Below, piece after piece: positions 319 through 14,206 of a DNA stretch of 64,000 nt. The stretch comes from Pseudomonadota bacterium (GTDB taxonomy: Bacteria > Pseudomonadota > Alphaproteobacteria > Dongiales > Dongiaceae): contig JACPDN010000005.1 of the NCBI GenBank assembly GCA_016183985.1, forward strand, positions 248,001 through 312,000. The letters are read 5' to 3'. Position 1 is the stretch's first letter. Each line of letters opens with the position of its first letter. The position numbers were made by a program, and so were the translations under genes. The notes below the pieces were generated by a model. The model was given only the letters and a program-made list of their open reading frames with translations. It made no database searches and was not told the DNA's origin.

Positions 319-1266
319 ATGACCGGGCTGGTTGCCGTCACGGGTGCCACCGGTTTTGTCGGTGCGGCAGCAGTCCACCATTTGGCGCGCGCTGGCTGGC
401 GCGTTCGCATTCTGACCCGGCGCATGCCCCTGGCGGCCCTGATGCCGGATCATGCAATCGAAGTCGTGCTCGGCGATATTGATGACCGCCTGGCGCTGGA
501 ACGCTTGGTGGCCGGCGCCGATGCCATTGTCCATTGCGCGGGCCTTACCAAGGCACTAGCACCGCTCGAATTCTTCAAAGTGAACGAGAGCGGTACTGTG
601 CGGCTGCTGGAAGCCGCTCAAAAGGCCGCCCCCCAGGCCCGTTTCATCCATATCTCCTCGCTGGCAGCACGTGAGCCGCAGCTGTCCCCCTACGCCGCGA
701 GTAAGCGCGCCGGAGAAGACAAACTGCCCGTTCTGGCGGGCGCGCGGGATTGGATCGCCCTGCGTCCGCCTGTGGTTTACGGGCCAGGCGACCTGGCCTT
801 GCTGCCGCTCTTCAAGGCTACAAAATTTGGCCTTTCCGCCTATCCGGCAACCCCTGGCACCAGGGTCTCGACCATCCATGTTTCGGATCTTGCGGCCGCC
901 ATCGTGGTGTTGCTTGGAACCGGCAACTGGCCGCATCGGATCATCGAATTGGATGACGGCCATCCGGGCGGCTATGACTGGCCGGAAATTAACCATGTTC
1001 TTGGGCGATGCTTCGGACGCCAACCGTTGGCGCTCCGCCTGCCCCGTCCCTTGATGACCGGCGTTGCCGGCGCGGTGACCCTGGTCTCGCAGCTGACACG
1101 AACGCCCCGAGTTCTGTCACTCGACAAACTGGCCGAGCTCTATCACCCCGATTGGGTCGCTTCCGGCGCAAAATTGGCGGAAACCACATCCTGGCGGCCC
1201 AGCTTTGATCTTAACCGCGGCTTTGCCGACACCCTGACTTGGTATCGATCCGAAGCTTTGCTGTAA
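319..1266 (+). CDS. cerR: Extended SDR / NAD-dependent epimerase family, ceramide reductase (CerR)-like
   Basis: This is a 315-residue extended short-chain dehydrogenase. The nucleotide-binding motif TGATGFVG is at residues 8-15, the Asn/Ser region follows around 110-114, and the catalytic YxxxK is intact as Y125-AAS-K129. It starts 21 bases after the acyl-AMP ligase stop and precedes the ACP and serine palmitoyltransferase genes. In Caulobacter an SDR in the same position (CerR) reduces the 3-keto group of oxidised ceramide after N-acylation. The function is assigned from fold plus neighbourhood. A nucleotide-sugar epimerase is the alternative, but no sugar genes lie nearby. Confidence 0.75.
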   Translation: MTGLVAVTGATGFVGAAAVHHLARAGWRVRILTRRMPLAALMPDHAIEVVLGDIDDRLALERLVAGADAIVHCAGLTKALAPLEFFKVNESGTVRLLEAAQKAAPQARFIHISSLAAREPQLSPYAASKRAGEDKLPVLAGARDWIALRPPVVYGPGDLALLPLFKATKFGLSAYPATPGTRVSTIHVSDLAAAIVVLLGTGNWPHRIIELDDGHPGGYDWPEINHVLGRCFGRQPLALRLPRPLMTGVAGAVTLVSQLTRTPRVLSLDKLAELYHPDWVASGAKLAETTSWRPSFDLNRGFADTLTWYRSEALL

Positions 1267-1322: not shown

Positions 1323-1450
1323 TTCGTCATTTAACTTTAGCCGCGAAATTTACGACAACCTCTGCAGGCAGGTTGGCTTGAGTCGCTTTCGTGCCTAAGG
1401 GGTTCCCGACGTTAACAGATTCGACAACAAGAAAAGATTGGTCCGGCATC

Positions 1451-1726
1451 GTGACGGCGAGCGCAGCGCAGGTTTCTAATTCCACTATCGAGAATGTCGT
1501 GGCGGAGATCGCCACCGCGCTGGTGCCGTTCAAGAAGTCCGATATCGAGATCACCGCGGCGACCGATATCGCCCGTGACCTCAACATGGACTCGCTGGCA
1601 GTCATGGATTTGCTGATGGAGCTCGAAGACAAGTTCGACGTCTCCATTCCGCTCAACATGGTGCCCGAGATTGCCACGGTCGGACAGCTTGCCCAGACCG
1701 TGATCGATTCAAAGAAGGGGGCGTAA
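1451..1726 (+). CDS. Acyl carrier protein dedicated to sphingolipid synthesis
   Basis: This is a 91-residue acidic four-helix carrier protein. The phosphopantetheine site is the DSL motif at residues 47-49 (Ser48) within NMDSLAVMDL. The GTG at 1451 was chosen because it gives the usual ACP length; an in-frame GTG at 1391 would add 20 residues without family similarity. It ends one base before the serine palmitoyltransferase start, so the two are translationally tight. The expected role is to carry the fatty acyl group loaded by the upstream acyl-AMP ligase and present it to serine palmitoyltransferase. It is distinct from the housekeeping fatty-acid ACP, which would normally sit with fabD/G/F. 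Confidence 0.9.
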   Translation: MTASAAQVSNSTIENVVAEIATALVPFKKSDIEITAATDIARDLNMDSLAVMDLLMELEDKFDVSIPLNMVPEIATVGQLAQTVIDSKKGA

Positions 1727-1727
1727 G

Positions 1728-2948
1728 ATGGGGTTGATGGATCGTTTCAAGGCGCAGCGCGAGCTGCATGCCGCCGTGAAGACCTGCGGCGCCGATCCGT
1801 TCGGTGTGAAGATGGATAAGATCGTTTCCTCGACCGAGGCGATGATCGAAGGCCGTCGCACCATTCTTTGCGGTTCCAACAACTATCTCGGCTTCACCTT
1901 CGATGCCGATTGCATCGAGGCCGCCAAGAAAGCGCTTGAGACGAGTGGCACCGGCACCACCGGCTCGCGCATCGCTAACGGTTCGTATAACGACCATAAG
2001 GCGCTCGAATCCGATCTCGCAGATTTCTACGGCAAGAAGCATTGCATGGTCTTTACGACCGGCTATCAGGCCAATCTCGGCGCCATCTCGACGCTCGCCG
2101 GTCCGGACGATTTCCTGATCATCGACGCCGATAGCCATGCCAGCATCTACGATGCTTGCAAGCTGGGCTCGGCGACCGTGATCCGCTTCAAACACAACGA
2201 CCCGACCGATCTCGACAAGCGCCTCGCGCGCCTTGCCGATCAGCCAGGCAATAAGATCGTTGTCGTCGAAGGCATCTACTCGATGCTGGGCGATCATGCC
2301 CCGCTCAAGGAATTCGTTGCCGTCACCAAGAAGCACAACGCATACATCCTGGTCGACGAAGCCCATTCGATGGGCGTCCTCGGCAAGACCGGCCAAGGCT
2401 TGGTCGAGCATGATGGCGTGCTGGAAGAAGTCGATTTCATCACCGGCACCTTCTCCAAGAGCATGGGCGCCGTGGGTGGTTTCCTGGTTTCGAACATGGA
2501 AGACTTCGACGTCCTGCGTGTCGCTTGCCGCCCGTATATGTTTACCGCTTCGCTGCCGCCTGCCACGATCGCGTCGGTGCGGACGTCACTGGCGAAACTG
2601 CGTGCCAATCCGGGCCTGATGAAAAAGCTGTGGCAGAACGTCGACACGCTTTATCACGGCGCCCAGAATGCCGGTTTTGCCGTCGGCAAGCAGAAGGGCC
2701 CGGTGGTCGCCGTGCATCTCACCGATCCGGCTCTGGCCGCTCGCGCCTGGCGTGCACTGCTGCTCAATGGCATCTACGTCAATCTGGCATTGCCGCCGGC
2801 AACACCGTCGGGCACCGCCCTGCTCCGCTGCTCGGTTTCCGCCGCGCATAGCACGGAACAGCTTGAGCGTGTCGTGTCGATCCTGGCGGATATCGGCCGC
2901 GAACTCGGCCTGCTGAAATCGCCGGCTCACGCGGTGGCCGCGGAATAA
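1728..2948 (+). CDS. spt: Serine palmitoyltransferase (alpha-oxoamine synthase)
   Basis: This 406-residue PLP enzyme has fold type I. It shows the substrate loop GTGTTGSRIANG near residue 75, the stacking His137 in DADSHAS, Asp210 in ILVDEAH, and the PLP lysine K244 in TGTFSKSMGAVGG, a spacing typical of serine palmitoyltransferase. The enzyme condenses serine with a long-chain acyl thioester to give 3-ketosphinganine, the first committed step of sphingolipid synthesis. The family also holds KBL, BioF and HemA. The adjacent ACP, reductase, ceramide synthase-like and kinase genes decide for serine palmitoyltransferase. A strong intrinsic terminator follows. Confidence 0.93.
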   Translation: MGLMDRFKAQRELHAAVKTCGADPFGVKMDKIVSSTEAMIEGRRTILCGSNNYLGFTFDADCIEAAKKALETSGTGTTGSRIANGSYNDHKALESDLADFYGKKHCMVFTTGYQANLGAISTLAGPDDFLIIDADSHASIYDACKLGSATVIRFKHNDPTDLDKRLARLADQPGNKIVVVEGIYSMLGDHAPLKEFVAVTKKHNAYILVDEAHSMGVLGKTGQGLVEHDGVLEEVDFITGTFSKSMGAVGGFLVSNMEDFDVLRVACRPYMFTASLPPATIASVRTSLAKLRANPGLMKKLWQNVDTLYHGAQNAGFAVGKQKGPVVAVHLTDPALAARAWRALLLNGIYVNLALPPATPSGTALLRCSVSAAHSTEQLERVVSILADIGRELGLLKSPAHAVAAE

Positions 2949-3015: not shown

Positions 3016-3591
3016 TCAGCGCCCATCTAGGCCCTGCCAGACGCCCTCTTCCCGCCAGCCAAGTTCGGCGAAGTCCGCCCCCCGGAACTTGCTGTCCCCC
3101 GCACAGAAGAACTCGTCGAGCTGCGGCGGCTTCACGGCACTGCCGGCCATCATCGCATGTACCTGGCCACGATGATGGATCTGATGTTCGAAAAGATGCA
3201 GCAGTACCCGGTCGGCACGATCGATCTGCACATGAGTCTCGCGGTGCATCCGAATATCCTTGGCAAGACCTCCATCATCGAGCCTGTCGCACAGCGCTAT
3301 GAGGCGCTGATCAACCGCCCGCTGTGCTTTCTCGAAATCAGTAAAGTTGGGAAACGGCACTTCGCTCTCCCAGGCCTTCGGCCCCAGCGTTCCGCCCTCA
3401 AGCGCGTCGACATAGAACCAGTCGACGACCAGAATGTGGTTGTAGGTTTCGACGATCGAAGGAAAGAAACTGGTCCGCTCTGCAACGAACTCCGCAGGCG
3501 AGAGCGCTGCACAGGCCTTCAGCAGGCGGTGATTGGCCCAGGCGTTGTTCCTGGCCATTGCCAGAAAGTACAGAGCCGCCCCTGTCGCCAT
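3016..3591 (-). CDS. DinB/YfiT-fold putative metal-dependent protein
   Basis: This 191-residue protein has the DinB-family four-helix bundle signature. It opens with LAMARNNAWANHRLL and later carries HLFEHQIHHRGQVHAMM, where the His residues would bind a metal. The ATG at 3591 is preceded by a strong GGAGGAGG ribosome site. A longer frame from 3633 would overlap the upstream gene and lacks such a site. It is the last gene of the reverse operon with the Tam41-like, kinase and CDP-alcohol transferase genes. Members include thiol-dependent transferases and damage-inducible proteins of unknown function. No sphingolipid role is known, and the link rests on position only. Confidence 0.8.
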   Translation of the reverse strand: MATGAALYFLAMARNNAWANHRLLKACAALSPAEFVAERTSFFPSIVETYNHILVVDWFYVDALEGGTLGPKAWESEVPFPNFTDFEKAQRAVDQRLIALCDRLDDGGLAKDIRMHRETHVQIDRADRVLLHLFEHQIHHRGQVHAMMAGSAVKPPQLDEFFCAGDSKFRGADFAELGWREEGVWQGLDGR

Positions 3592-3619
3592 TTTATCCTC
3601 CTCCTGCGCCAATAGCGCG

Positions 3620-4531
3620 TTACCGGAACGCACCCCGCCGATAAAGTTTCCAGGCGAGGCCAGGTGCCGCCAGCAACGGGTGCCGGCGTTGCCAGTCGCT
3701 GACCGGCACCACGACGCCAGAATGCCGGCGCACCTTCCACATCACATAGTCGACGGCCCCATCGAAAGTAAAAGCTGCCTTGATAAGACGCAGATAGTTG
3801 AGCGTCTTGCCAATGAACCGACGCCCCTGCCAATTCTCCACCGCAAGCTCGCGCGGCATCTTCTGGCCTGCCGCCTCTTCCTGCAGCAAATTGCCGATAG
3901 CGCGATAACGTGCTTCGTCGGCCGCAACGATCGACAATGCACGATCGCCTTTCTCCGAACGAAGTTCGGCCGCGTAGGTTGCCTTGAATCCTTCGCGCCA
4001 GACAGCCAGCGGATCGTGTGCGGCTTGCGCATCAAGCAAAGGTTCTGCGTTGCGAAACATCGTACGGCAAGCCTCGGCCAATGCTTCCGTCAATGCAGTA
4101 TCCGTCGCGCCATCGCGACACCAAATAAGGCGCGTCGGCTGGCAGAAGCGGGCCCAGATCGAGACATTTCGCGCACTTGCAGCGCACCCGTCGGCAAATT
4201 GTCGCAGCGATATGACCGCGTATTTAGCCCGCAATTTCAGCCCCTGCCAGGGCAGTTCGACATAGAACACATTGGGCGGCAGCAGGGCATTGGCGAGTGC
4301 CAAGAGCGGGCTGCCATAGGCCGCCCGATAATCGTCGACGATGACGTAGAAATCGAGCAATGCGTCGCCCAGCGCCTGATCGGACTGCCGCAGGCACGAA
4401 CCGTAGAAAAGAATCCCGATCGCAGCATTCTCATGGCGCGCACGACAATGATCCGCCATGGCGCGAGCGGCCGCCGCCGCCGGCATGTGCAGCTCGGCGG
4501 CAATCAGGGCAGCGACAGCGTCCGATGCCAT
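3620..4531 (-). CDS. Tam41/Mmp37-like cytidylyltransferase, candidate CTP:ceramide-1-phosphate enzyme
   Basis: This 303-residue protein resembles the mitochondrial CDP-diacylglycerol synthase Tam41. FYGSCLRQ (G44-S45) opens the nucleotidyltransferase core, LLDFYVIVDD follows (D60, D66-D67), then NVFYVELPWQG, then LRAKYAVIS (K103-Y104, matching the KYGVIS motif of Tam41), and IWARFCQPTRLIW matches the LYIAGRLQKPV region. It lies 21 bases downstream of the ceramide-kinase-like gene and in the same operon as a CDP-alcohol phosphotransferase. This suggests it turns ceramide 1-phosphate plus CTP into a CDP-lipid. That reaction is inferred. By position it matches one of the three Caulobacter cpg genes needed for ceramide phosphoglycerate. 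Confidence 0.7.
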   Translation of the reverse strand: MASDAVAALIAAELHMPAAAAARAMADHCRARHENAAIGILFYGSCLRQSDQALGDALLDFYVIVDDYRAAYGSPLLALANALLPPNVFYVELPWQGLKLRAKYAVISLRQFADGCAASARNVSIWARFCQPTRLIWCRDGATDTALTEALAEACRTMFRNAEPLLDAQAAHDPLAVWREGFKATYAAELRSEKGDRALSIVAADEARYRAIGNLLQEEAAGQKMPRELAVENWQGRRFIGKTLNYLRLIKAAFTFDGAVDYVMWKVRRHSGVVVPVSDWQRRHPLLAAPGLAWKLYRRGAFR

Positions 4532-4552
4532 GTTGCGCGAGCTCCTTCCCGC

Positions 4553-5509
4553 TCAGAACCGATGGAAACGCATGACCGGCCCAGCAGAGATCACGATGCG
4601 ACCGTCTGCGGGCGGCTGGAAAGCTTCACCATCAATCATGACCGGACTTTCGATTTCAAGCTCCAGCTTTTCCATGCGACGGCTGAGGTAGCCGGCATCC
4701 TTCATCCAAGGCTTGGGCTTGCCGCGCAGTACCGACAACGCGGCCGCGGCAAAGCGGCGTGGCGGTGAATCAATGGTCGTCAGTTGCAGACGACCAGGCC
4801 CTTCCCCCCAGAACGGTACCACGCCTGGCAAGACAGAATTGAGAGTCGAGCCCAAGAAAATGAAGCACTCCCGCCGCTCCGATTGCCCGTCAATCGTGAG
4901 CCCCAGTGTCTCACCATGAAAGCCGGAACGGGGGCCGGGCCCGAACATGAGGATCTTCAGAATCGACCAAGCGATGCCTAGCTTCGCCGCAAAGACTTGC
5001 TTGGCCCCCAGCGAGTGAATGTCGCGACGGACAAGCCTCGTGCCTTGATAGAAGCCAATCCCGCCGATCAGGAAGCCGCGCTCCATCACGCGCCCGTCGC
5101 CGAAATCGACCGACAATACCGGCCGCTCGAGAATTTCTCCCGCCTTGCCTGCTTCAACTTTCGTCACCAGACGCTTCAGGCCATCGGCCGGCAAGCCGGG
5201 CTGCCCCACCTCATGCGAGATCACATTCGTCATGCCGGCCGAGAGAAGGCTCAGGCAAGGTTGCCGACCAAAAGGGCTATTGTTAAGGAGCGCCGATACT
5301 GTTGCCAGGACCGTTCCGTCGCCGCCACTGATAACCAGATGCGTTATCTCGGCCGCAGCCATCTCGGCCAGGCAGCCCGGCAACTCGCTGATGTGCTGGA
5401 AGGAACGATGCCTGACTTGCGGGTGCTGGGCCAACAGCTGGTGAATCTTGCGCATCGACATTTTGTTGCGCTTGCTGTGCGCATTGCTGATGACGCCGAT
5501 CCGCACCAT
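4553..5509 (-). CDS. cpgB: Ceramide / sphingoid-base kinase (DAGK-catalytic fold), CpgB-like
   Basis: This is a 318-residue lipid kinase of the diacylglycerol-kinase catalytic family. It starts with an N-terminal strand and ISNAHSKRNK (the usual N-P-x-S/A-G nucleotide loop in variant form). The key ATP-binding SGGDGT motif is at residues 61-66, followed by LLSAGMTNVIS, which replaces the usual P-x-GTxND loop. The end of the protein has the typical DGEAFQ segment. It is sandwiched between a CDP-alcohol phosphotransferase (2 bases upstream) and the Tam41-like gene. In Caulobacter the equivalent gene (CpgB) phosphorylates ceramide. YegS-like diacylglycerol kinase is the alternative, but context favours ceramide. 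Confidence 0.82.
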   Translation of the reverse strand: MVRIGVISNAHSKRNKMSMRKIHQLLAQHPQVRHRSFQHISELPGCLAEMAAAEITHLVISGGDGTVLATVSALLNNSPFGRQPCLSLLSAGMTNVISHEVGQPGLPADGLKRLVTKVEAGKAGEILERPVLSVDFGDGRVMERGFLIGGIGFYQGTRLVRRDIHSLGAKQVFAAKLGIAWSILKILMFGPGPRSGFHGETLGLTIDGQSERRECFIFLGSTLNSVLPGVVPFWGEGPGRLQLTTIDSPPRRFAAAALSVLRGKPKPWMKDAGYLSRRMEKLELEIESPVMIDGEAFQPPADGRIVISAGPVMRFHRF

Positions 5510-5511
5510 CG

Positions 5512-6630
5512 TCAGGCTGCCTCAGTAAGCCAGGATTGCAAGCGCCTGCCACGCGCGCGCGCTACGTAGGCCTGACCGATCCGCAAGCAATGGAACAAGA
5601 AGGAAAGGATCGTCCACCAGGCGACGATTTCAAAGCCTAGGGCTGGTTCCCCGAAAATGACAGCGATACTGAGGATGATGAGGTTGGGGTTACGGCGTGC
5701 TGTAATCTGGCGAAAGCCGGAATCAAGCGGCCGCCAGATATGCATTTCGATACCGAACTGCCAGATAAACAGGCCCTCCTGACCGCGCCCCAGAATATAG
5801 CCGGCGATGATGACCCAGAATGTCCAGGGTTCTACAGCCGCGGCGCCGCCAAGCCCCACATACCAAGCCCAGTACCAGAATGGCGGGTGCACCAAATCGG
5901 TGCCGTGATCGAACACGTTGCCCCATTTACTGGAAGTGAGTGTCACGCGCGCGAGCTTGCCGTCGACGGTATCAAGGAAACACATGGCCCAGGCAGCGAT
6001 GAGGCCGGTGCCGAATTCACCGATCCAGAATAGCCACGTGGCAAGCAGCACGCAGATGAAGCTGACCAGCGTCACCATGTTGGGAGAAATGCCGGCTCGC
6101 GCGCAAAAGCGCGTCACATAGAGCGCTGGCACCGGCCAGACGTGTTTCGTCACGACGTCGGTGATGCCCTTATACGATTCCAGATACATCCGACGCTCGA
6201 TCTCGTGCGTCGACATTTCATCAAGAGCGAAGAGATAAGGGGCGCCCTTGCGGCGCAGCGCCTTGTTGTAGTTGCTGGCCAGGCCGGCAGCATCGAGGCA
6301 GACGATATCGGTGGGCAGATCGTCCCGCCGGCCGCGCTCGATTGCAGCCGTCACCTGGTCAAGCTTTCCAGCCTTTGTACAATGTGCAGCGACCGGCCGG
6401 CCATGCCCGTCGAGCAGCGCCCTGCCTGGCTGCTGGATCAATGCCCGGACCAGGGCCTCGTCGAAGATCATGTCGGCACGGAAAATCAGACCGCCTGAGT
6501 CGGCACGGGCATCGTCCCCGATCCGTTGCAAGGCACGTTCCAGCCGCGCCTTTGGGGTAAGGCCCCAAACGATTTCCTTCGACTCGTGCACAAAGACTGG
6601 CGCGAGTTCCCTATCCAATTGAATTACCAT
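5512..6630 (-). CDS. CDP-alcohol phosphatidyltransferase with N-terminal nucleotidyltransferase-like domain (copy 1)
   Basis: This 372-residue membrane enzyme carries the full CDP-alcohol phosphotransferase signature: D220-xx-D223-G-xx-A227-R228-x8-G237-xxx-D241-xxx-D245. Several hydrophobic helices surround it (about 165-205, 255-285, 310-350). Residues 1-140 look like a worn-down sugar-nucleotidyltransferase fold (GLTPKARLERALQRIG) without a GGxGTR loop. It is first in the operon with the lipid kinase and Tam41-like genes, so it plausibly swaps CMP of a CDP-ceramide for a polar head group. A paralogue is encoded at 10126. The start ATG at 6630 has no clear ribosome site. TAAAAT lies only a few bases upstream, so a leaderless transcript is possible. 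Confidence 0.85.
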   Translation of the reverse strand: MVIQLDRELAPVFVHESKEIVWGLTPKARLERALQRIGDDARADSGGLIFRADMIFDEALVRALIQQPGRALLDGHGRPVAAHCTKAGKLDQVTAAIERGRRDDLPTDIVCLDAAGLASNYNKALRRKGAPYLFALDEMSTHEIERRMYLESYKGITDVVTKHVWPVPALYVTRFCARAGISPNMVTLVSFICVLLATWLFWIGEFGTGLIAAWAMCFLDTVDGKLARVTLTSSKWGNVFDHGTDLVHPPFWYWAWYVGLGGAAAVEPWTFWVIIAGYILGRGQEGLFIWQFGIEMHIWRPLDSGFRQITARRNPNLIILSIAVIFGEPALGFEIVAWWTILSFLFHCLRIGQAYVARARGRRLQSWLTEAA

Positions 6631-6813: not shown

Positions 6814-7782
6814 GTGACTGCCTATACGTTGGCACATTTCAGCGATCCCCATCTGGGCCCCCTGCCTGCTGCCGGCTGGCGGGAGTTGGCCAATAAGCGT
6901 CTTTCAGGTTTTTTTTCCTGGACGCGCAATCGTGTCAATATTCACAGGCCGGAAGTGCTGAAGCTGTTGGTCGCGGATCTCAAACGCCAGGCGCCGGATC
7001 ACATCGCGATCACTGGCGACCTCGTCAATATTTCCCTGCCGGCTGAGTTTCTGGCAGCAGCCCACTGGCTGGAGGGCGTCGGCACACCCGCCAATGTCAC
7101 GATCATTCCCGGCAACCATGATGCCTATATCGAAATGCCTTGGGCGCAATCGCTGGCCTGCTGGGCGCCTTATATGACCGGCGAGCGGAATGAAGGAAAC
7201 GAGACTGCCGTCCCTCAATCGCATGCAGACTTCCCCTTTGTTCGCCGGCTTGGCGACATAGCGCTGATCGGAACGTCCACGGCGGTGCCGATGCCCCCTT
7301 TCGTTGCCGCCGGACGGCTGGGCCACGCGCAATTGGACCGCCTACGCCAACAATTGCAGGCCCTGCGACGCCAGGGTCTCTTCCGGGTCGTTCTGATCCA
7401 TCACCCGCCCTTTGGTGGCGGTGCCTACAAGCGCAAGTCACTCCTGGATGCTAAAGAATTTCAGGCAGTGCTGGAGGATGCCGGGGCAGAGATGATTCTG
7501 CATGGGCATACCCATGTTTCCGGGCTTGGACGGATTCAAACGTCAAAGGGGCCGATTCCTGTCATTGGCGTCCCCTCGGCATCTGCAGTCGCGGCGGGCC
7601 ACAAGGACGCGTCGCGCTATCATCTCTATCGGATCAGCCGAAACGGCGACGGCTGGCTGTTGGAGATCGATATTCGCGGCCTCAATGCAACACAGGATGG
7701 CTTCGAGGCACAAGGGAGTATGGCCATGTCGATTCCCTTGTTAGTATCAAAAGAGGTCTCGGCTGCCGGAGCGGCCGCCTGA
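6814..7782 (+). CDS. Calcineurin-like metallophosphoesterase
   Basis: This 322-residue protein has the full five-block metallophosphoesterase pattern: HFSDPHLG (D11, H13), GDLVN, PGNHD, a lone His in LIHHPPF, and HGHTH. No signal peptide or membrane segment is visible, so it should be cytoplasmic. The GTG start at 6814 has AAGGAA six bases upstream. It heads the forward operon with lptF-lptG and a second CDP-alcohol phosphotransferase, and is divergent from the lipid-kinase operon over a 183-base AT-rich gap. A role in removing a phosphate from a sphingolipid intermediate, as LpxH and PgpA-type steps do elsewhere, is an inference from position. Confidence 0.85.
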   Translation: MTAYTLAHFSDPHLGPLPAAGWRELANKRLSGFFSWTRNRVNIHRPEVLKLLVADLKRQAPDHIAITGDLVNISLPAEFLAAAHWLEGVGTPANVTIIPGNHDAYIEMPWAQSLACWAPYMTGERNEGNETAVPQSHADFPFVRRLGDIALIGTSTAVPMPPFVAAGRLGHAQLDRLRQQLQALRRQGLFRVVLIHHPPFGGGAYKRKSLLDAKEFQAVLEDAGAEMILHGHTHVSGLGRIQTSKGPIPVIGVPSASAVAAGHKDASRYHLYRISRNGDGWLLEIDIRGLNATQDGFEAQGSMAMSIPLLVSKEVSAAGAAA

Positions 7783-7825: not shown

Positions 7826-9034
7826 ATGAAATTCCTTCGCATCGATATTTACATTCTGAAGCGTGTGGCTCTGCCGCTGTTGGCTACTGTCGGCATCGCT
7901 ATGGCGGCGTTGCTGCTTGAGCGTCTGATTCGACTATTGGATCTCTTCGCCAATCGAGGTGGCCCGCTCAATATCGTTCTCAAGATGCTCGCCAATCTAG
8001 TCCCGCACTATCTTGGCATCGCCGTGCCGGCCGCCCTTTTCGTCGGCGTCCTTTACGCCAGCATGCGCCTTTCCTCAGATAGCGAGCTTGATGCCATGCG
8101 TGCGAGCGGTTTGTCCCTCCGCAGGCTGCTTATGCCGATCCTGGCATTGTCGATCGTTTTGGCCATCGTTAGCGCCTATCTCATTGGCTTTCTGCAGCCA
8201 TACACGCGCTTTGCCTACCGTGCCTTGGTTCACCTGGTCGTCGAGACTGCCTGGGATTCCGCGATTGAACGGGGCGCCTTCTTCAGCGGGTTTGGTGGCA
8301 AAACTATCCTCATTGGTGACATTTCCGAAGGCGGCAGCAAGCTTTCTCAGATTTTCGTCAAGGAAGTGGACGAGAACGGCCAAGATCTCGTCACCACTGC
8401 CGAGAGTGGTCAGTTGGAGCGGAACGCAGATCTATCCCTCGTACTGACCCTGCATAACGGCGTCCGAACCGAGACCACACCGGGCACTAACCAAGCCAAG
8501 GCGGTCGTATTCTCCGAACTCAAGCTGCCGATGGATACGGTTGCGCCGGAGCCGTTCCGGAACCGCGGCGACCGCGAAAGCGAACTCGACTTCTTCGAAC
8601 TCATTCATGCCTATTTCAATACACCGCCCACGCTTCATATTGAGGACATAAAGGCGGAACTGAACAGTCGTCTGGTACGCACCGTATCGATCATCTTCCT
8701 GCCGCTCTTAGCCATGCCGATCGGTGTATCGTCGCGCCGCACATCCAAGGGCGTCCGAATGCTGGTGGGCATCCTTTTTCTCGTCGCGTATTTCCAGATC
8801 CTGCAATTCGGTAGAGATGCTGTGGGAAGCGGGATGCTGGGATCGGCTGCGGCGCTATGGCTGCCATTCCTGGTATTTGGCGCTATCAGCACTTGGCTGT
8901 TCTACCTTGCCAATTCTCGCCCCGGCGCGGACCCGCTCGCACATGTGTTTGAATCCATTTCGGATGGTTCCAACTGGTTGTGGGGACACATTCGCCGCTT
9001 CCTGCCGCGTCGCTCGCAAGAGGCCGCTGAATGA
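7826..9034 (+). CDS. lptF: LptF-like permease of an Lpt-type lipid exporter
   Basis: This is a 402-residue inner-membrane protein of the LptF/LptG family. Three membrane helices at the N-terminal end (about 12-35, 50-80, 100-125) are followed by a periplasmic beta-jellyroll-type region (about 135-275) and three C-terminal helices. RASGLSLRRLLMPIL is the coupling-helix region that meets the LptB ATPase. It overlaps lptG by four bases. Canonical alphaproteobacterial lptFG sit beside lptD and surA, which are absent here. Either the housekeeping pair has moved, or this is a second pair serving sphingolipids. No ATPase or LptC is encoded nearby. Confidence 0.85.
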   Translation: MKFLRIDIYILKRVALPLLATVGIAMAALLLERLIRLLDLFANRGGPLNIVLKMLANLVPHYLGIAVPAALFVGVLYASMRLSSDSELDAMRASGLSLRRLLMPILALSIVLAIVSAYLIGFLQPYTRFAYRALVHLVVETAWDSAIERGAFFSGFGGKTILIGDISEGGSKLSQIFVKEVDENGQDLVTTAESGQLERNADLSLVLTLHNGVRTETTPGTNQAKAVVFSELKLPMDTVAPEPFRNRGDRESELDFFELIHAYFNTPPTLHIEDIKAELNSRLVRTVSIIFLPLLAMPIGVSSRRTSKGVRMLVGILFLVAYFQILQFGRDAVGSGMLGSAAALWLPFLVFGAISTWLFYLANSRPGADPLAHVFESISDGSNWLWGHIRRFLPRRSQEAAE

Positions 9035-10122
9035 ACACCTTCACGCGCTATGTCCTCAAGAGTTTCCTCTGGCAGTTCTTGCTGCTGCTCATCGGCTTTA
9101 CGGCATTGCTGCAGCTCTTTGACCTGCTCAACAACAGCGCCGACATCCTGCAGGACCATATGGGGCAGATGAGCGCAGTGCTCGAATACGCCGTGTTGCG
9201 GCTGCCTGAAATCATGTCGTTCCTGGTGCCTTTCGCCGTATTGATGGGGGCGCTTGTTACCCTCGGCAAGATGGAACGGGATAACGAGATCATGGCTTAT
9301 AAAGCGGCCGGAGCTCCATATTTTACCGTTCTCTGGGCATTCCTGCCTGCTGTGGGCATCGTCGCCGTCCTGCATTTCTTTTTGGCCGACCAGATCGTCC
9401 CGATATCCATCCAATCGTTGATTCAACGTGACCTCTCTACTGAGCGCGCGAAATCGAAAAATGAAGCAAAGGATGAACCGCTCTTCGTCCAGGAGGGCAA
9501 ATCCGTCGTCGAAGCCGGTGCAGTCGGCCAAGACGGGACAACACTCAGCCATCTTCGAATCTACGAGCGCGACGATAGCGGCAAGATTGTGAAGCAGGTT
9601 TTTGCCAATGACGCTCACTATGACACGAGTAAAGAAGTTTGGACTTTGAGCAACGTCTGGACGACGACCATTCCAGATGGGCAGGCGGCACAGACCGCGC
9701 GGACGGACTCTTGGGTTTGGCCGACGCATCTCACGCCGGCGGAGTTCTCAGATCTGGTAGAGAAGCCGCAGGCGATGCCTTTGCTGAAGATCCATGGTTT
9801 CATCTCCTCCACCCAGGTCGGTGTGCGGCCGACATACTTTTACGAAACCTGGCTGCAGAAGCGTATCGCACTGCCGGTAAGTTCTATCCTGATGATCCTG
9901 CTTGCCGCCCCCGTGGCGCACTCGCTGCATCGGCGCGAGCGAGGCCTTGCCATGGGCATGACCGTCGGTTTCGGTCTGGGTTTCCTCTATTTTCTAACAG
10001 ACGGCTTGGTCTTGTCCTTGGGGGAATCAGGCGCGGTACCGCCCTTCCTGGCGGCCTGGTTGCCGATCCTGCTTTTCGCCGCGATCGGCGGCGCCTGGCT
10101 TATCAAGCAGGAAGGCTATTGA
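9031..10122 (+). CDS. lptG: LptG-like permease of an Lpt-type lipid exporter
   Basis: This 363-residue partner of the preceding permease starts inside the lptF stop (ATGA at 9031). It has the same 3+3 helix plan with a periplasmic domain at about 125-265. YKAAGAPYFTVLWAF forms the LptB-facing coupling helix, and LAAPVAHSLHRRERGLAMGM is the conserved start of the second membrane half. It is followed only three bases later by a CDP-alcohol phosphotransferase, so synthesis and transport genes are co-transcribed. This supports, without proving, a role in moving a head-group-bearing lipid out of the inner membrane. Confidence 0.85.
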   Translation: MNTFTRYVLKSFLWQFLLLLIGFTALLQLFDLLNNSADILQDHMGQMSAVLEYAVLRLPEIMSFLVPFAVLMGALVTLGKMERDNEIMAYKAAGAPYFTVLWAFLPAVGIVAVLHFFLADQIVPISIQSLIQRDLSTERAKSKNEAKDEPLFVQEGKSVVEAGAVGQDGTTLSHLRIYERDDSGKIVKQVFANDAHYDTSKEVWTLSNVWTTTIPDGQAAQTARTDSWVWPTHLTPAEFSDLVEKPQAMPLLKIHGFISSTQVGVRPTYFYETWLQKRIALPVSSILMILLAAPVAHSLHRRERGLAMGMTVGFGLGFLYFLTDGLVLSLGESGAVPPFLAAWLPILLFAAIGGAWLIKQEGY

Positions 10123-10125
10123 GCC

Positions 10126-11337
10126 ATGAAGTTGTGGATCGACGCGGGGCGCATCGGCGCCGAGCGCGTCTTTGGCATGAGCTTGATCGAACGGCATCTG
10201 AAAGCTGCAAGGCATCAGAAACTCTCTTTGAGCGAAGTGATTGTCGATATTGGCTCGGGTACTGCTCCAATCTGGGTGCCGGAACCGCGGCTCAACTGCC
10301 CCGTGCGGGTCGTTTCCGGACCGGGCAGTTGTGTTGATCGGCTGAAGGAGGCCCTTGCCGCAGGCGAGCCGTTGATTGTCACCGATGCGGCAACGCTGGC
10401 CGATGCACGTCTTTACAGCTTTCTCGCCGAGCGTCCCGGCAGCTGCGCCGTCCGAGCCAACAAAGCAGCGATTGGACGGATCGAACCCGACGATGCTGTG
10501 CAGCTCCTCGATGCACCGACGCTCGACGCAGTGACCGCACGACTGCCGGAGATTCGGCAGCAGGACTTCCCTGCCTTCGTTGCCAAGCTGCGCCGCTCGC
10601 TGCCTTTCTACCTGTTCTCCGTCACCACCCAGGCCGAGCGGAAAAACGTCGAGAAATTCCTTTTCTGGTCGAACTACAAAGGCTCGACCGACTTCTTCAC
10701 CAAATACGTCTACCCGCCTTTGGTTTGGGCATTGGTCCCACCGCTTGCCCGCGCGCGCATCCATCCCAACACGGTCACCATCGTCAGCATCATCCTCACC
10801 ATCCTTGCCGTGCCGCTTTGCGCAGGCGGGTATTTCTGGTGGGGCTTTGCCTGCGCCTATGGCATGAGTGTGCTTGATTCTGTCGATGGAAAGCTTGCCC
10901 GCCTCACCTTTACTGATTCCGCGATCGGCAATGTGCTCGATCATGGCCTGGATATTGTCCATCCACCGTTCTGGTATTTCGGCTGGGCGGTCGGACTTTT
11001 AGGCGGATGGTCGCTTGCCGATTTCGGTGAGCCGTTATGGCAGGCAGCGTGGTGGATGCTGGCCCTTTACGTCCTCGATCGGCTCATCCTGGCAGTCTAC
11101 CGGGCGAAATATAAGCGTGGGTTGCATACGCATGCCGCGATCGACAGCTTCGTGCGCACTTTCATTTCGCGCCGAAATATAAATTTGCCCTTATTTACCG
11201 TGGCATACGCCGCCGGCTGGGGAGCCCAGGCATTCTATTTCATCGTTCTATGGCAAGCGCTTACCTGTCTTTACCATGGTGGCCGGACGGTATGGATTCT
11301 AGCGACCTATCGCCCCATCGCGGCAGATCCCGCGTAA
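10126..11337 (+). CDS. CDP-alcohol phosphatidyltransferase with N-terminal nucleotidyltransferase-like domain (copy 2)
   Basis: This 403-residue paralogue of the gene at 5512 has the same plan. A soluble domain of about 160 residues (GMSLIERHLKAARHQK then EVIVDIG) resembles nucleotidyltransferases but lacks the GGxGxR loop. A linker with NYKGSTDFFTKYVYP matches YKGITDVVTKHVWP of copy 1. Then comes D251-xx-D254-G-xx-A258-R259-x8-G268-xxx-D272-xxx-D276 among membrane helices. Such enzymes join a CDP-activated partner to an alcohol. It belongs to the operon with lptFG, hydroxylase, ceramide synthase and a separate nucleotidyltransferase, so it may build a second head group. The substrate is unknown. 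Confidence 0.85.
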   Translation: MKLWIDAGRIGAERVFGMSLIERHLKAARHQKLSLSEVIVDIGSGTAPIWVPEPRLNCPVRVVSGPGSCVDRLKEALAAGEPLIVTDAATLADARLYSFLAERPGSCAVRANKAAIGRIEPDDAVQLLDAPTLDAVTARLPEIRQQDFPAFVAKLRRSLPFYLFSVTTQAERKNVEKFLFWSNYKGSTDFFTKYVYPPLVWALVPPLARARIHPNTVTIVSIILTILAVPLCAGGYFWWGFACAYGMSVLDSVDGKLARLTFTDSAIGNVLDHGLDIVHPPFWYFGWAVGLLGGWSLADFGEPLWQAAWWMLALYVLDRLILAVYRAKYKRGLHTHAAIDSFVRTFISRRNINLPLFTVAYAAGWGAQAFYFIVLWQALTCLYHGGRTVWILATYRPIAADPA

Positions 11338-11448: not shown

Positions 11449-12234
11449 ATGCTTCGTTTCGGCTTCTGGAAAGACCGGACCCATAACCTGTCGCGCATGT
11501 CGCTGGCCGATCTGGTGGCAGCCTTTGTCACCTACCCGTCTGTTCACGCCTATTTCGGGCTGGCGGCAGTCAGCCTCTATTTCGTTTATCGCTGGTATAC
11601 GGCTTGGCTGCCTTTGCTGATCGCTGTCGCGCTCGCTGTCGTCGTTTACCCCTTGGTCTGGTACGTGCTCCACCGCTGGGTGCTCCACAGCCAATTCCTC
11701 TACAAGTCGCCGCTGACCGCCAAGACCTGGAAACGCATCCATTTCGATCATCATCAGGATCCGCATAATCTGGTCGTGCTGTTTGGCGCGCTCTACACCA
11801 CACTCCCGACAATCGCGATCGTGACAATGCCGATCGGTTACGCGGTCGGTGGCCCTGCCGCGGCTGCTATGGCTTTTGCAACCGGCCTGCTCACCACCTG
11901 CTTCTACGAGTTCTGTCACTGCGTGCAGCATCTCAATACCAGCCCCAAGACGGCTTTCATGAAGCGGTTGAAGCAGCTTCATATGTGGCATCACTTCCAC
12001 AATGAGCAGGGCAATTACGGCATCACCAATTTCGTTTGGGATCGCCTCGGCCGCACCTATTACGCCAAAGCCAGCACGGTTCCGAAGAGTCCGACCGTTT
12101 TCAACATCGGCTACACGGCTGAAATGGCGGAACGTTACCCTTGGGTGGCGCAGCTCTCGAACAACACCCGTGGCGACGGCAATCCGCGTCGTTTCCGTAC
12201 TGACAACGCCACCGACAGCGGCCCCGCCGCCTGA
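11449..12234 (+). CDS. Fatty acid hydroxylase / sterol desaturase family di-iron membrane enzyme
   Basis: This 261-residue integral membrane protein has the histidine clusters of the family: H75-RWVL-H80, H98-FD-H101-H102, H157-xxx-H161 and H178-MW-H181-H182-x-H184, separated by membrane segments near 30-75 and 110-155. These would hold two iron atoms for O2-dependent hydroxylation. It sits 29 bases before the ceramide-synthase-like gene. Ceramide C4-hydroxylases and alpha-hydroxylases belong to this family, so it likely hydroxylates the long-chain base or N-acyl chain. Carotenoid or sterol hydroxylation is less likely here, since no isoprenoid genes are seen. Confidence 0.85.
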   Translation: MLRFGFWKDRTHNLSRMSLADLVAAFVTYPSVHAYFGLAAVSLYFVYRWYTAWLPLLIAVALAVVVYPLVWYVLHRWVLHSQFLYKSPLTAKTWKRIHFDHHQDPHNLVVLFGALYTTLPTIAIVTMPIGYAVGGPAAAAMAFATGLLTTCFYEFCHCVQHLNTSPKTAFMKRLKQLHMWHHFHNEQGNYGITNFVWDRLGRTYYAKASTVPKSPTVFNIGYTAEMAERYPWVAQLSNNTRGDGNPRRFRTDNATDSGPAA

Positions 12235-12263: not shown

Positions 12264-13400
12264 ATGGCACAGATCGAAGTTGTTCCGGTCACCGACAAGG
12301 CCGGGCTAAAGGCATTTATTGCATTGCCTAAGCGTCTATACGCCGGCAGCAGCGGCTATGTTGCCCCGCTCGACATGGAGCGGGCCGAGGTTCTGACGCC
12401 CGGCAAAAATCCTTATTTCACGCATGCCAAGGCCCAACTCTTCCTCGCCAAACGCGACGGCAAGATTGTAGGCCGTATTTCCGCGCAGGTCTGCCAGCTC
12501 GAGCAGAAGCTGCGGCCCGGTACTGGCCATTTCGGCTGGATCGATGCCGAAGATGACCCCACGATTTACAAAGCCCTTGTCGACGCGGCCTCAGCCTGGC
12601 TCCGTCAGCAGGGTTCCAGCCGCATGGTCGGTCCCTTGAGTTTCTGCACCAATGAAGAAACGGGCCTCCTCGTCGACGGGTTCGACAACCTGCCAATGCT
12701 GATGATGCCCTATCACGCACCATATGCCGGCCGAAATGTCGAAGCGGCCGGCTTCGTCAAGCTCAAGGACGTGGTCGCCTACGACCTCAACAAGACGGCC
12801 TATAAGCCGGTGGGCTCGTCGCGCATGCTGGAGAAGCTGCAGGCGGACGGAACGATCCGTATGCGCGGCCTGGATATGAAGAACTACACCCGCGATCTCG
12901 GCATCATCCTCGATATCTTCAATGATGCCTGGGCGGACAATTGGGGCATGATCCCATTCACGGCAGATGAGATCGCTGCCGCGGCAAAGTCTATGAAGCC
13001 TTTGATCGATCCCAATCTTGTCGTGATCGCCGAAGTGAAGGGCGAACCCGCCGGCATGCTGGTCTGCCTGCCAAATCTGATGGAAGCGATCCGCGATTTC
13101 GATGGCAGCCTGCTACCCTTTAACGTCGTCAAATTGTTGTGGCGCCTGAAGACCAACAAGCTGAAGACCAGCCGCATTCCGTTGATGGGCATCCGGCGCA
13201 AGCATCACGGCTCCGTCCTTGGTGCGACGCTGCTGCCGCTGATGTTCGACCGGTTAAAGGAGCCGTTCCTCAAGCGTGGCCTCGAACGCGTCGAGATGTC
13301 GTGGATACTTGAGGACAATGCACCGATGCGGCGTGTCATCGAAGGCGTCGGTGGCAAAGTCTATAAGACCTACCGCATCTACGAGAAATCGCTGGCTTGA
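12264..13400 (+). CDS. bcerS: Bacterial ceramide synthase-like GNAT-fold N-acyltransferase (bCerS-like)
   Basis: This 378-residue soluble protein belongs to the large GNAT-type family that in Caulobacter includes the bacterial ceramide synthase. It shows the family start (FIALPKRLYAGSSGYVAPL), AKAQLFLAKRDGKIVGRI, then GPLSFCTNEETGLLVDGFD and MMPYHAPYAGR, and a C-terminal half ending in the GNAT-like VEMSWILEDNAPMRRVIE. It should N-acylate 3-ketosphinganine before the CerR step. It lies between the hydroxylase and the nucleotidyltransferase genes in one transcript. The specific reaction rests on family resemblance and on the presence of spt, acp and cerR in the same window. Confidence 0.8.
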   Translation: MAQIEVVPVTDKAGLKAFIALPKRLYAGSSGYVAPLDMERAEVLTPGKNPYFTHAKAQLFLAKRDGKIVGRISAQVCQLEQKLRPGTGHFGWIDAEDDPTIYKALVDAASAWLRQQGSSRMVGPLSFCTNEETGLLVDGFDNLPMLMMPYHAPYAGRNVEAAGFVKLKDVVAYDLNKTAYKPVGSSRMLEKLQADGTIRMRGLDMKNYTRDLGIILDIFNDAWADNWGMIPFTADEIAAAAKSMKPLIDPNLVVIAEVKGEPAGMLVCLPNLMEAIRDFDGSLLPFNVVKLLWRLKTNKLKTSRIPLMGIRRKHHGSVLGATLLPLMFDRLKEPFLKRGLERVEMSWILEDNAPMRRVIEGVGGKVYKTYRIYEKSLA

Positions 13401-13405
13401 GCGCC

Positions 13406-14206
13406 ATGCCTGAGCCGCGTTTTAATGCTCTGATTCTAGCCGGCAACCGCCGCGAGGGCGACAGCGTTGCTACTTTGACCGGCGTCAGCCACAAGGCATT
13501 AGCCCCCATCAATGGCGTCCCGATGCTCTTGCGTCTCTATCGCACTTTGCGTGAGGTCGATGGCATTGGCGACATTCACGTCTGCATTGATGACGTTAGC
13601 CTGCTCGACGGCATACCGGAACTGGCCGCTGCACGGGCGAGTGGCGCGATCCGGATTGTCAAACCCGCCATCAGCCCAGCCGCGAGCTTAGGCGCGGCTC
13701 TCGATTTGATCGGCCTACAGCGACCGCTTCTTACCACGACCGCCGACCATCCGCTGCTGACGGCGGCGATGGTCACTCACATGCTGCGCGCCACGCCGGA
13801 CGATGCGGAACTCGGCGTCGGCCTCGCCGAGGCCGAGACCGTGACTGCCGTCTATCCTGATGCCATTCGCACCTTCTATCGCTTCAAGGGCCGGCGCTTC
13901 AGCGGCTGCAATCTTTTCTTGGCCCGCGGCAACAACGCGCGGAAGGTCACCCAGTATTGGCAACGCATGGAGCGGCATCGCAAGAAGCCGTGGCGACTGG
14001 TCTGGGAAATCGGCCCGCTGGCATTGCTGCGGATGATCTGCGGGCAGCTCAGCCTTGATGACGCCTTCGCTCACGTTTCGAAACTGACCGGTGCCAGCAT
14101 TCGACCGGTTCTCATGCCCTTCGCGGAAGCGCCGATCGATGTCGATAAGCCGGCCGACTTCGAGCTGGTCACGGAAATCCTTCGACGCCGCGAAGGCGCC
14201 GCCTAG
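13406..14206 (+). CDS. MobA-like NTP transferase (GT-A fold), candidate head-group activating enzyme
   Basis: This is a nucleotidyltransferase of about 266 residues. The nucleotide loop reads LILAGNRREGD in place of the usual LAGGxGxRM, followed by the lysine in SHKALAPINGVPMLLR, as in MobA, IspD and sugar-1-phosphate enzymes. TTTADHPLLT gives the metal-binding Asp. ATG 13406 is taken as the start; a TTG at 13397 overlaps the ceramide synthase stop and adds three residues. It is the last gene of the forward sphingolipid operon. A role in making a CDP-alcohol for the copy-2 phosphotransferase is attractive, because fused IPCT-DIPPS enzymes join the same two activities, but the substrate is unknown. 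Confidence 0.72.
   Translation: MPEPRFNALILAGNRREGDSVATLTGVSHKALAPINGVPMLLRLYRTLREVDGIGDIHVCIDDVSLLDGIPELAAARASGAIRIVKPAISPAASLGAALDLIGLQRPLLTTTADHPLLTAAMVTHMLRATPDDAELGVGLAEAETVTAVYPDAIRTFYRFKGRRFSGCNLFLARGNNARKVTQYWQRMERHRKKPWRLVWEIGPLALLRMICGQLSLDDAFAHVSKLTGASIRPVLMPFAEAPIDVDKPADFELVTEILRRREGAA

Follow-up and report, generated by a model that had tools for sequence, protein, structure and literature searches.

A Tam41-fold protein in a Dongia-type sphingolipid gene cluster as a candidate CTP:ceramide 1-phosphate cytidylyltransferase

Gene content of the locus

The stretch analysed here (64,000 nucleotides, hereafter the window) covers positions 248,001 to 312,000 of contig JACPDN010000005.1 in assembly GCA_016183985.1, which derives from an alphaproteobacterium of the family Dongiaceae. 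It holds three reverse-strand genes that encode a phosphotransferase of the cytidine diphosphate (CDP)-alcohol type (here called PT1), a lipid kinase, and a protein of 303 amino acids (aa). According to our analysis, the 303-aa protein is, by its predicted structure, a Tam41-fold nucleotidyltransferase of the CpgC type, and it is proposed here to activate ceramide 1-phosphate with cytidine triphosphate (CTP). The three open reading frames (ORFs) were found where a preliminary description of the DNA had placed them, and they are separated by gaps of 2 and 21 base pairs:

3620-4531, minus strand: Tam41-like nucleotidyltransferase, CpgC-like, 303 aa; no Pfam match, fold match to Tam41; proposed CTP:ceramide 1-phosphate cytidylyltransferase
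4553-5509, minus strand: DAGK-type lipid kinase, CpgB-like, 318 aa (DAGK_cat, 2.7e-09); proposed ceramide kinase
5512-6630, minus strand: PT1, CDP-alcohol phosphotransferase, CpgA-like, 372 aa, with an N-terminal cytidylyltransferase-like domain (CDP-OH_P_transf, 4.1e-10; motif DTVDGKLARVTLTSSKWGNVFDHGTD)

Judged from their sequences, the genes around this trio are a Dongia-type sphingolipid cluster. Loci referred to below as named loci are the best 80 of at least 582, retrieved with a pattern built on the YGS motif and its surroundings, and some of them are cut by contig ends; the closest relatives of the 303-aa protein among them are from Dongia (67-76% identity). The remaining features of the cluster are as follows:

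319-1266, plus strand: NAD-dependent epimerase/reductase, CerR-like by position (Epimerase, 2.7e-26)
1391-1726, plus strand: putative dedicated acyl carrier protein (acp), an ORF that adjoins spt in related loci
1728-2948, plus strand: putative serine palmitoyltransferase (spt), an ORF with matches at E < 1e-120 in related genomes
6814-7782, plus strand: metallophosphoesterase, CC_1158-like by position (Metallophos, 5.7e-13); present in 23 of the 24 PT1-bearing named loci
7826-9034, plus strand: LptF-type permease, LptF2-like, presumed to serve sphingolipid export (TIGR04407, 3.6e-72)
9031-10122, plus strand: LptG-type permease, LptG2-like (TIGR04408, 1.9e-75)
10126-11337, plus strand: PT2, a second CDP-alcohol phosphotransferase of the PT1 family, 403 aa (CDP-OH_P_transf, 2.2e-09)
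11449-12234, plus strand: fatty acid hydroxylase (FA_hydroxylase, 1.1e-20)
12264-13400, plus strand: GNAT-type acyltransferase, CerS-like by position (Acetyltransf_1, 0.00034); adjoins the cpgD-like gene in related loci
13397-14206, plus strand: CpgD-like cytidylyltransferase, proposed CDP-glycerate maker (NTP_transf_3, 3.4e-11)

Next after the Tam41-like gene, in the same orientation, comes a DinB-family gene (3016-3633, with a GTG start and a later ATG possible). It occupies the same spot in five Dongia-type loci (L044, L045, L056, L057 and L058, with L045 and L056 belonging to one genome) and is not found there in the others.

Fold and conserved residues of the Tam41-like protein

The resemblance of the 303-aa protein to Tam41 had been proposed from its YGS, LLDF and KYAVIS blocks; these blocks are present, and the predicted model has the Tam41 nucleotidyltransferase core. 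In a structural comparison with VIA-align, the AlphaFold model (mean predicted local distance difference test, pLDDT, 94.2; predicted template modelling score 0.91) matched the bacterial Tam41 structure 7ecd with Z 18.9 and a root-mean-square deviation of 2.9 over 219 residues (model residues 16-256, 14% identity), so that the alignment extends past the nucleotidyltransferase core, which in Tam41 is followed by a winged-helix domain, to model residue 256. Schizosaccharomyces pombe Tam41 was matched with Z 15.3 (6ig4) and 15.0, and the best match outside Tam41, an aminoglycoside nucleotidyltransferase, reached Z 7.7. A Foldseek search of the PDB placed Tam41 chains at ranks 1-4 (E 8.4e-08 to 2.7e-05, TM-scores 0.45-0.56).

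Conserved residues were read from an alignment (A1) of 30 sequences, namely the window protein and 29 relatives, taken from 30 of the 34 genomes described below; G076, G163, G192 and G275 were left out, their matches being split and without a locus. Positions Y43, G44, D60, K103, W126, R128, Q131, P132, E189, R191 and E193, among others, are invariant. Asp60 is followed at position 62 by Tyr in 28 of the 30 sequences, and Lys103 lies on a later strand. Tam41 is described as retaining a single acid out of the three typical of its fold, with CTP positioned by positively charged residues (PMC11646218), and the apparent one-acid pattern of the 303-aa family is in line with this. Its last 32 aligned residues carry a net charge of +2 to +9 in all 30 sequences and the model places a helix at 285-298, a predicted basic C-terminal helix which agrees with the positively charged amphipathic C-terminal helix reported to bind Tam41 to the membrane (PMC7018664).

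The window protein thus has in common with Tam41/TAMM41 (7ecd, 6ig2, 6ig4) the predicted core fold, one conserved acid and a basic C-terminal helix, but differs in its low identity (12-14%), in being missed by the Pfam model, and in its proposed substrate, ceramide 1-phosphate rather than phosphatidate. The Pfam Tam41 model PF09139 matches two of 30 family members, L012 with 29 bits, which passes the cut-off of 24, and L025 with 23.3 bits. Canonical Tam41 genes, sought as PF09139 matches above the cut-off, were found in none of 349 genomes of the phylum.

Distribution and probable substrate of the Tam41-like protein

Of 289 alphaproteobacterial genomes, 34, among them the source genome, encode relatives of the 303-aa protein (E <= 0.001), and each of these 34 also has the kinase, which argues against a chance ORF. 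By their titles, the named loci come from Alpha-, Beta- and Gammaproteobacteria, Nitrospirales, Desulfosarcina and Marinimicrobia, among others. The 34 genomes were compared with 17 that lack the gene (51 in total); the latter were taken from the first 20 listed, from which G002, G011 and G017 (81, 77 and 88% complete) were left out. The ceramide-type kinase occurs in 34/34 genomes with the Tam41-like gene and in 0/17 without it, Spt (E < 1e-120) in 34/34 and 1/17, and CpgD-like proteins (E <= 0.001) in 33/34 and 0/17. The genomes are related, and Fisher values on these counts overstate significance. The thresholds for Spt (1e-120), PT1 (1e-70) and CpgD (1e-35) were drawn after seeing the data; for Spt, whose query matches all 51 genomes at E <= 0.001 through related enzymes, a gap separates the 34 genomes and G012 (5e-124 or better) from the rest (6e-61 or weaker). 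Genome G012 (L244) combines a strong Spt match with the lack of the kinase, CpgD and the Tam41-like gene, and presumably makes other sphingolipids.

The Tam41-like gene adjoins the ceramide-type kinase gene within the sphingolipid cluster, as expected of CpgC. The two are adjacent and on the same strand in 66 of the 80 named loci, and in 13 of the other 14 a full-length kinase is encoded elsewhere in the genome. In Caulobacter, CpgB, a kinase of the same kind, is reported to phosphorylate ceramide (PMC10331486). The partner of the Tam41-like protein is probably a ceramide, and by analogy with Tam41 the simplest reading is that it would convert CTP and ceramide 1-phosphate to CDP-ceramide and pyrophosphate.

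Since the fold and the conserved residues resemble Tam41, and CDP-diacylglycerol synthesis has been reported for a bacterial Tam41 (PMC11646218), the protein might instead be an ordinary CDP-diacylglycerol synthase acting on phosphatidate. We regard this as highly improbable. CdsA-type CDP-diacylglycerol synthases are encoded in all 34 genomes with the Tam41-like gene and in all 17 without it, with two copies in the source genome, so that in none of them is the Tam41-like gene the sole candidate for this activity. Its presence also tracks the sphingolipid genes, and loss of the Caulobacter counterpart CC_1161 is reported to abolish ceramide phosphoglycerate (PMC11324152). The preference for ceramide over phosphatidate, one half of the CDP-ceramide route put forward in the preliminary description, thereby gains indirect support from the Spt and kinase co-occurrence and from the CdsA distribution; the other half, PT1 as the user of CDP-ceramide, was not supported, as set out below. 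One of the two CdsA-type genes of the source genome adjoins a CDP-alcohol phosphotransferase gene elsewhere in that genome (G000:C1:353341-354776).

PT1 and the CDP-glycerate step

The most direct reading of the trio would be a linear route, in which the kinase and the Tam41-like protein are followed by PT1, which joins CDP-ceramide to the head group. The trio is adjacent, and PT1 (E < 1e-70) was found only alongside the Tam41-like gene (20/34 genomes versus 0/17; one of the 20, G027, has an internal TGA). Moreover, PT1 matches profiles of PIP synthases, enzymes whose donor is a CDP-lipid and whose acceptor is phosphorylated (PIPSynth at 9.4e-12, 45 bits against a cut-off of 170); its membrane domain is by sequence as close to PIP synthase as to AF2299 and IPCT-DIPPS, and its model (pLDDT 91.2) matches Mycobacterium tuberculosis PgsA1 with Z 16.1 over 192 residues. 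The full catalytic motif DxxDGxxAR...GxxxDxxxD is kept in PT1 as well as in PT2, and the CDP-alcohol phosphotransferase fold is matched for PT1.

Against this route, PT1 is absent from 14 of the 34 genomes with the Tam41-like gene, and all 20 PT1-bearing genomes among the 51 compared encode CpgD (E < 1e-35). Of the named loci, as represented by the fetched stretches, 20 carry both PT1 and cpgD, 4 have PT1 but not cpgD, 6 have cpgD but not PT1, and 50 have neither. Over its whole length, the PT1 model is nearest to AF2299 (Z 22.4 over 310 residues) and IPCT-DIPPS (Z 20.7 over 306 residues); the structure entries 5d92, 5d91, 6wm5 and 6wmv are by name fusions with AF2299 or its domain and were not counted as independent. 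PT1 is alike to AF2299 and IPCT-DIPPS over the N-terminal and membrane domains, but differs in its low identity (17% and 13%) and in that the presumed cytidylyltransferase partner, the CpgD-like protein, is encoded by a separate gene; a Pfam search of PT1 gave no nucleotidyltransferase-domain match.

In Caulobacter, cpgB and cpgC are reported to be needed for the first phosphoglycerate of the head group, while the second involves cpgA and cpgD, with cpgA assigned to that one alone; CpgD makes CDP-glycerate, its loss leaves ceramide phosphoglycerate in place, and its closest structural match is given as an inositol-phosphate cytidylyltransferase (PMC12275187). Given this match and the fold of PT1, the two proteins look like a split IPCT-DIPPS pair that would use CDP-glycerate, a soluble CDP-alcohol. 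From the Caulobacter genetics, the fold and the co-occurrence, we posit that PT1 is probably not the user of CDP-ceramide and serves the later CDP-glycerate step, and we consider the linear route unlikely.

Several CpgD results were treated apart, namely G205 (split at a contig end, E 7e-8), G071 (no match; 82% complete), and G039, G167, G264 and G244 (best E 5e-20 to 4e-30). A CpgD-like pair in G039 (L229) was not counted as CpgD at E < 1e-35; its score is weaker, and the adjoining genes appear to encode a sulfotransferase and a UDP-sugar dehydrogenase. In two Nitrospirales loci (L094 and L103), PT1-like genes lie on either side of the kinase and Tam41-like genes, and L094 has an extra NTP_transf_3 gene.

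Proposed pathway

We posit the following scheme, which we judge to be somewhat favoured by the evidence. The CpgB-type kinase would phosphorylate ceramide, and the Tam41-like protein would attach to the membrane through its basic C-terminal helix and move cytidine monophosphate (CMP) from CTP to ceramide 1-phosphate to give CDP-ceramide, much as Tam41 acts on phosphatidate. A separate joining enzyme would then swap CMP for glycerate or phosphoglycerate, yielding ceramide phosphoglycerate. PT1 would act later, taking CDP-glycerate from the CpgD-like protein (13397-14206) and adding a second phosphoglycerate, and the LptF/LptG-type permeases would export the product. The scheme draws on gene order, predicted fold, conserved residues and co-occurrence from the present analysis, and on the work of others in Caulobacter, who showed the activities of the CpgB kinase and of CpgD and which lipid is lost with each gene.

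A number of observations weigh against this scheme. PF09139 gave no match to the window protein at E <= 10, and sequence searches that started from the window protein (phmmer), the family profile or L012 returned no Tam41 chain. The phmmer search with the 303-aa protein gave no solved relative, the family profile found among solved structures only a small nucleotidyltransferase-domain chain (E 0.02), and L012 found only two unrelated matches (best E 0.67). As no solved relative was found by sequence, the link to Tam41 rests on structure and on the one relative above the Pfam cut-off, and a shared Tam41 fold does not fix the substrate. One of the 80 named loci, L121, belongs to a metagenome-assembled genome with only a weak kinase match (6.7e-7). 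For PT1, the profile search ranked a PIP-synthase fusion first (4.6e-12), followed by cholinephosphotransferase (5.2e-10), an enzyme that joins a soluble CDP-alcohol to a lipid, and by AF2299 (7.4e-10); because the PIP-synthase fusion outranks AF2299, the donor type of PT1 is not settled by sequence. CpgD (E < 1e-35) is also encoded in 8 of the 14 genomes that have the Tam41-like gene and lack PT1, where it must have another use outside the scheme. Finally, a user for CDP-ceramide, if this is made, is missing: six genomes (G026, G158, G159, G167, G256 and G264) with the Tam41-like gene but without PT1 encode just two CDP-alcohol phosphotransferases (PF01066) each.

Candidate users of CDP-ceramide

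By scores and sizes, the two PF01066 genes of those six genomes appear to be PgsA and one more, in most cases PssA. Because these genomes have no others, one reading is that CDP-ceramide is a new liponucleotide made by a Tam41-type enzyme, through which sphingolipids enter the ordinary glycerolipid machinery, and that, where no dedicated phosphotransferase exists, the housekeeping enzymes PgsA or PssA (the latter perhaps taking glycerate for serine) turn it into ceramide phosphoglycerate. We hold this to be rather doubtful, if conceivable.

In three of the six genomes (G026, G158 and G256), the candidate head-group genes of the locus are only those of the kinase, the Tam41-like protein, CpgD and a phosphoesterase; with two PF01066 genes per genome, no separate joining enzyme is seen there. 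This would fit a Tam41-fold protein that catalyses another reaction, either a direct joining of ceramide 1-phosphate with glycerate or phosphoglycerate or an exchange of CDP-glycerate with ceramide 1-phosphate, and a recent Caulobacter preprint credits CpgC with forming ceramide phosphoglycerate from ceramide 1-phosphate 'via an unidentified mechanism' (PMC13228409). Joining without activation has, however, been termed energetically not very favourable (PMC11324152), and Caulobacter is reported to keep ceramide phosphoglycerate upon loss of cpgD (PMC12275187), so that CDP-glycerate is not the donor for it in that organism. Such a reaction therefore seems improbable to us.

Within the genus of the source genome, PT2 may be considered as the joining enzyme that uses CDP-ceramide, with PT1 using CDP-glycerate. 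PT2, which is absent from the preliminary description, belongs to this cluster, where its gene separates those of LptG and the hydroxylase; its catalytic motif is intact, and PT1 is also present in all 8 PT2-bearing named loci. PT2 is, however, a PT1 paralog along nearly its whole length (profile probability 100, 29% identity) and may add a further head group. Since PT2-type second matches occur in only 7 of the 34 genomes (six closer to PT2 than to PT1, the seventh being G093), PT2 is not a general answer, and we give this assignment little credence. A third member of the family, PT3, is encoded some 10 kb before the window begins, on its upstream side (G000:C11:237112-237906; L040:6695-7990), and its neighbours in L040 are a Mito_fiss_Elm1 gene and two apparent ABC exporter genes. 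Either PT2 or PT3 could be the CDP-ceramide user in this genus.

Two other kinds of candidate were tried and rejected. TagF-type transferases (PF04464), considered as users of CDP-glycerate or CDP-ceramide, were found in 5 of the 51 genomes at E <= 0.001, of which only G158, with a match below the cut-off, belongs to those without PT1, and so were dismissed as a general answer. A conserved gene of unassigned function was also sought as the joining enzyme, but none of the commonest families in 105 loci is plausible; named from Pfam scans of example members, the commonest extra families are an AMP-ligase (41), DUF2141 (38), a flippase-like family (20) and a histidine kinase (20). A Pfam scan of further candidates in L093, L236 and L239 gave no match.

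The DUF2141 gene lies between lptF and the kinase gene (L089:8208-8891, L068:8171-8797, and others) in loci of the Sphingomonadales and Kordiimonadales type, mostly without PT1. Two small genomes from a single family have, close to cpgD, genes that encode GINT1_N, a domain named after the N-terminal part of plant glucosamine inositolphosphorylceramide transferase (L054:1132-2046 and L238:16957-17871). To judge from these annotations, these genes and a glycosyltransferase gene near cpgD in L054 perhaps add sugar to the sphingolipid.

Relation to known systems and implications

The window is a further example of a known cluster. Compared by the published gene map, the Caulobacter set CpgA-CpgB-CpgC-CpgD (CC_1159-1161 and CC_1152) recurs here together with its neighbours, and the whole resembles the Caulobacter sphingolipid region CC_1152 to CC_1168 as described (PMC11324152). 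Common to both are spt, the row of cpgC-, cpgB- and cpgA-like genes, the phosphoesterase, LptF2/LptG2, CerS and CpgD, while PT2, the fatty acid hydroxylase and PT3 go beyond the Caulobacter cluster. CdsA (PF01148) likewise turns a lipid phosphate and CTP into a CDP-lipid, but is described as an integral membrane family unrelated to Tam41 (PMC7018664).

The central idea, an activated ceramide, is already in print. For CC_1161, a PLoS Pathogens paper of 2024 notes an InterPro CDP-diacylglycerol-synthase domain, suggests a ceramide activated with a nucleoside diphosphate, and gives the joining enzyme as unknown (PMC11324152). The preprint cited above (May 2026), where it treats the CpgC step, still terms the conversion of ceramide 1-phosphate to ceramide phosphoglycerate unidentified (PMC13228409). 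The term 'CDP-ceramide' was not found in the open-access literature searched, nor were further names of the CDP-ceramide type or 'ceramide cytidylyltransferase' among the papers listed there, subscription journals lying mostly outside it. The present analysis contributes the structural test, the tight coupling to the kinase and Spt, the presence of CdsA in all compared genomes, and the PT1 evidence for the CDP-glycerate step.

The lipids concerned are of consequence to their producers, in that ceramide diphosphoglycerate is reported to support the survival of Caulobacter without lipopolysaccharide (PMC12275187) and is tied to its polymyxin sensitivity (PMC11324152). For the step from ceramide 1-phosphate to ceramide phosphoglycerate, the Tam41 fold and the coupling to the kinase and Spt lead to one testable hypothesis, CDP-ceramide. 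This hypothesis keeps the step apart from the one that uses CDP-glycerate, and it leaves fewer places to look for the joining enzyme. Should it prove true, there would be a sphingolipid branch of Tam41, which is known for acting on phosphatidate in mitochondria and in some bacteria.

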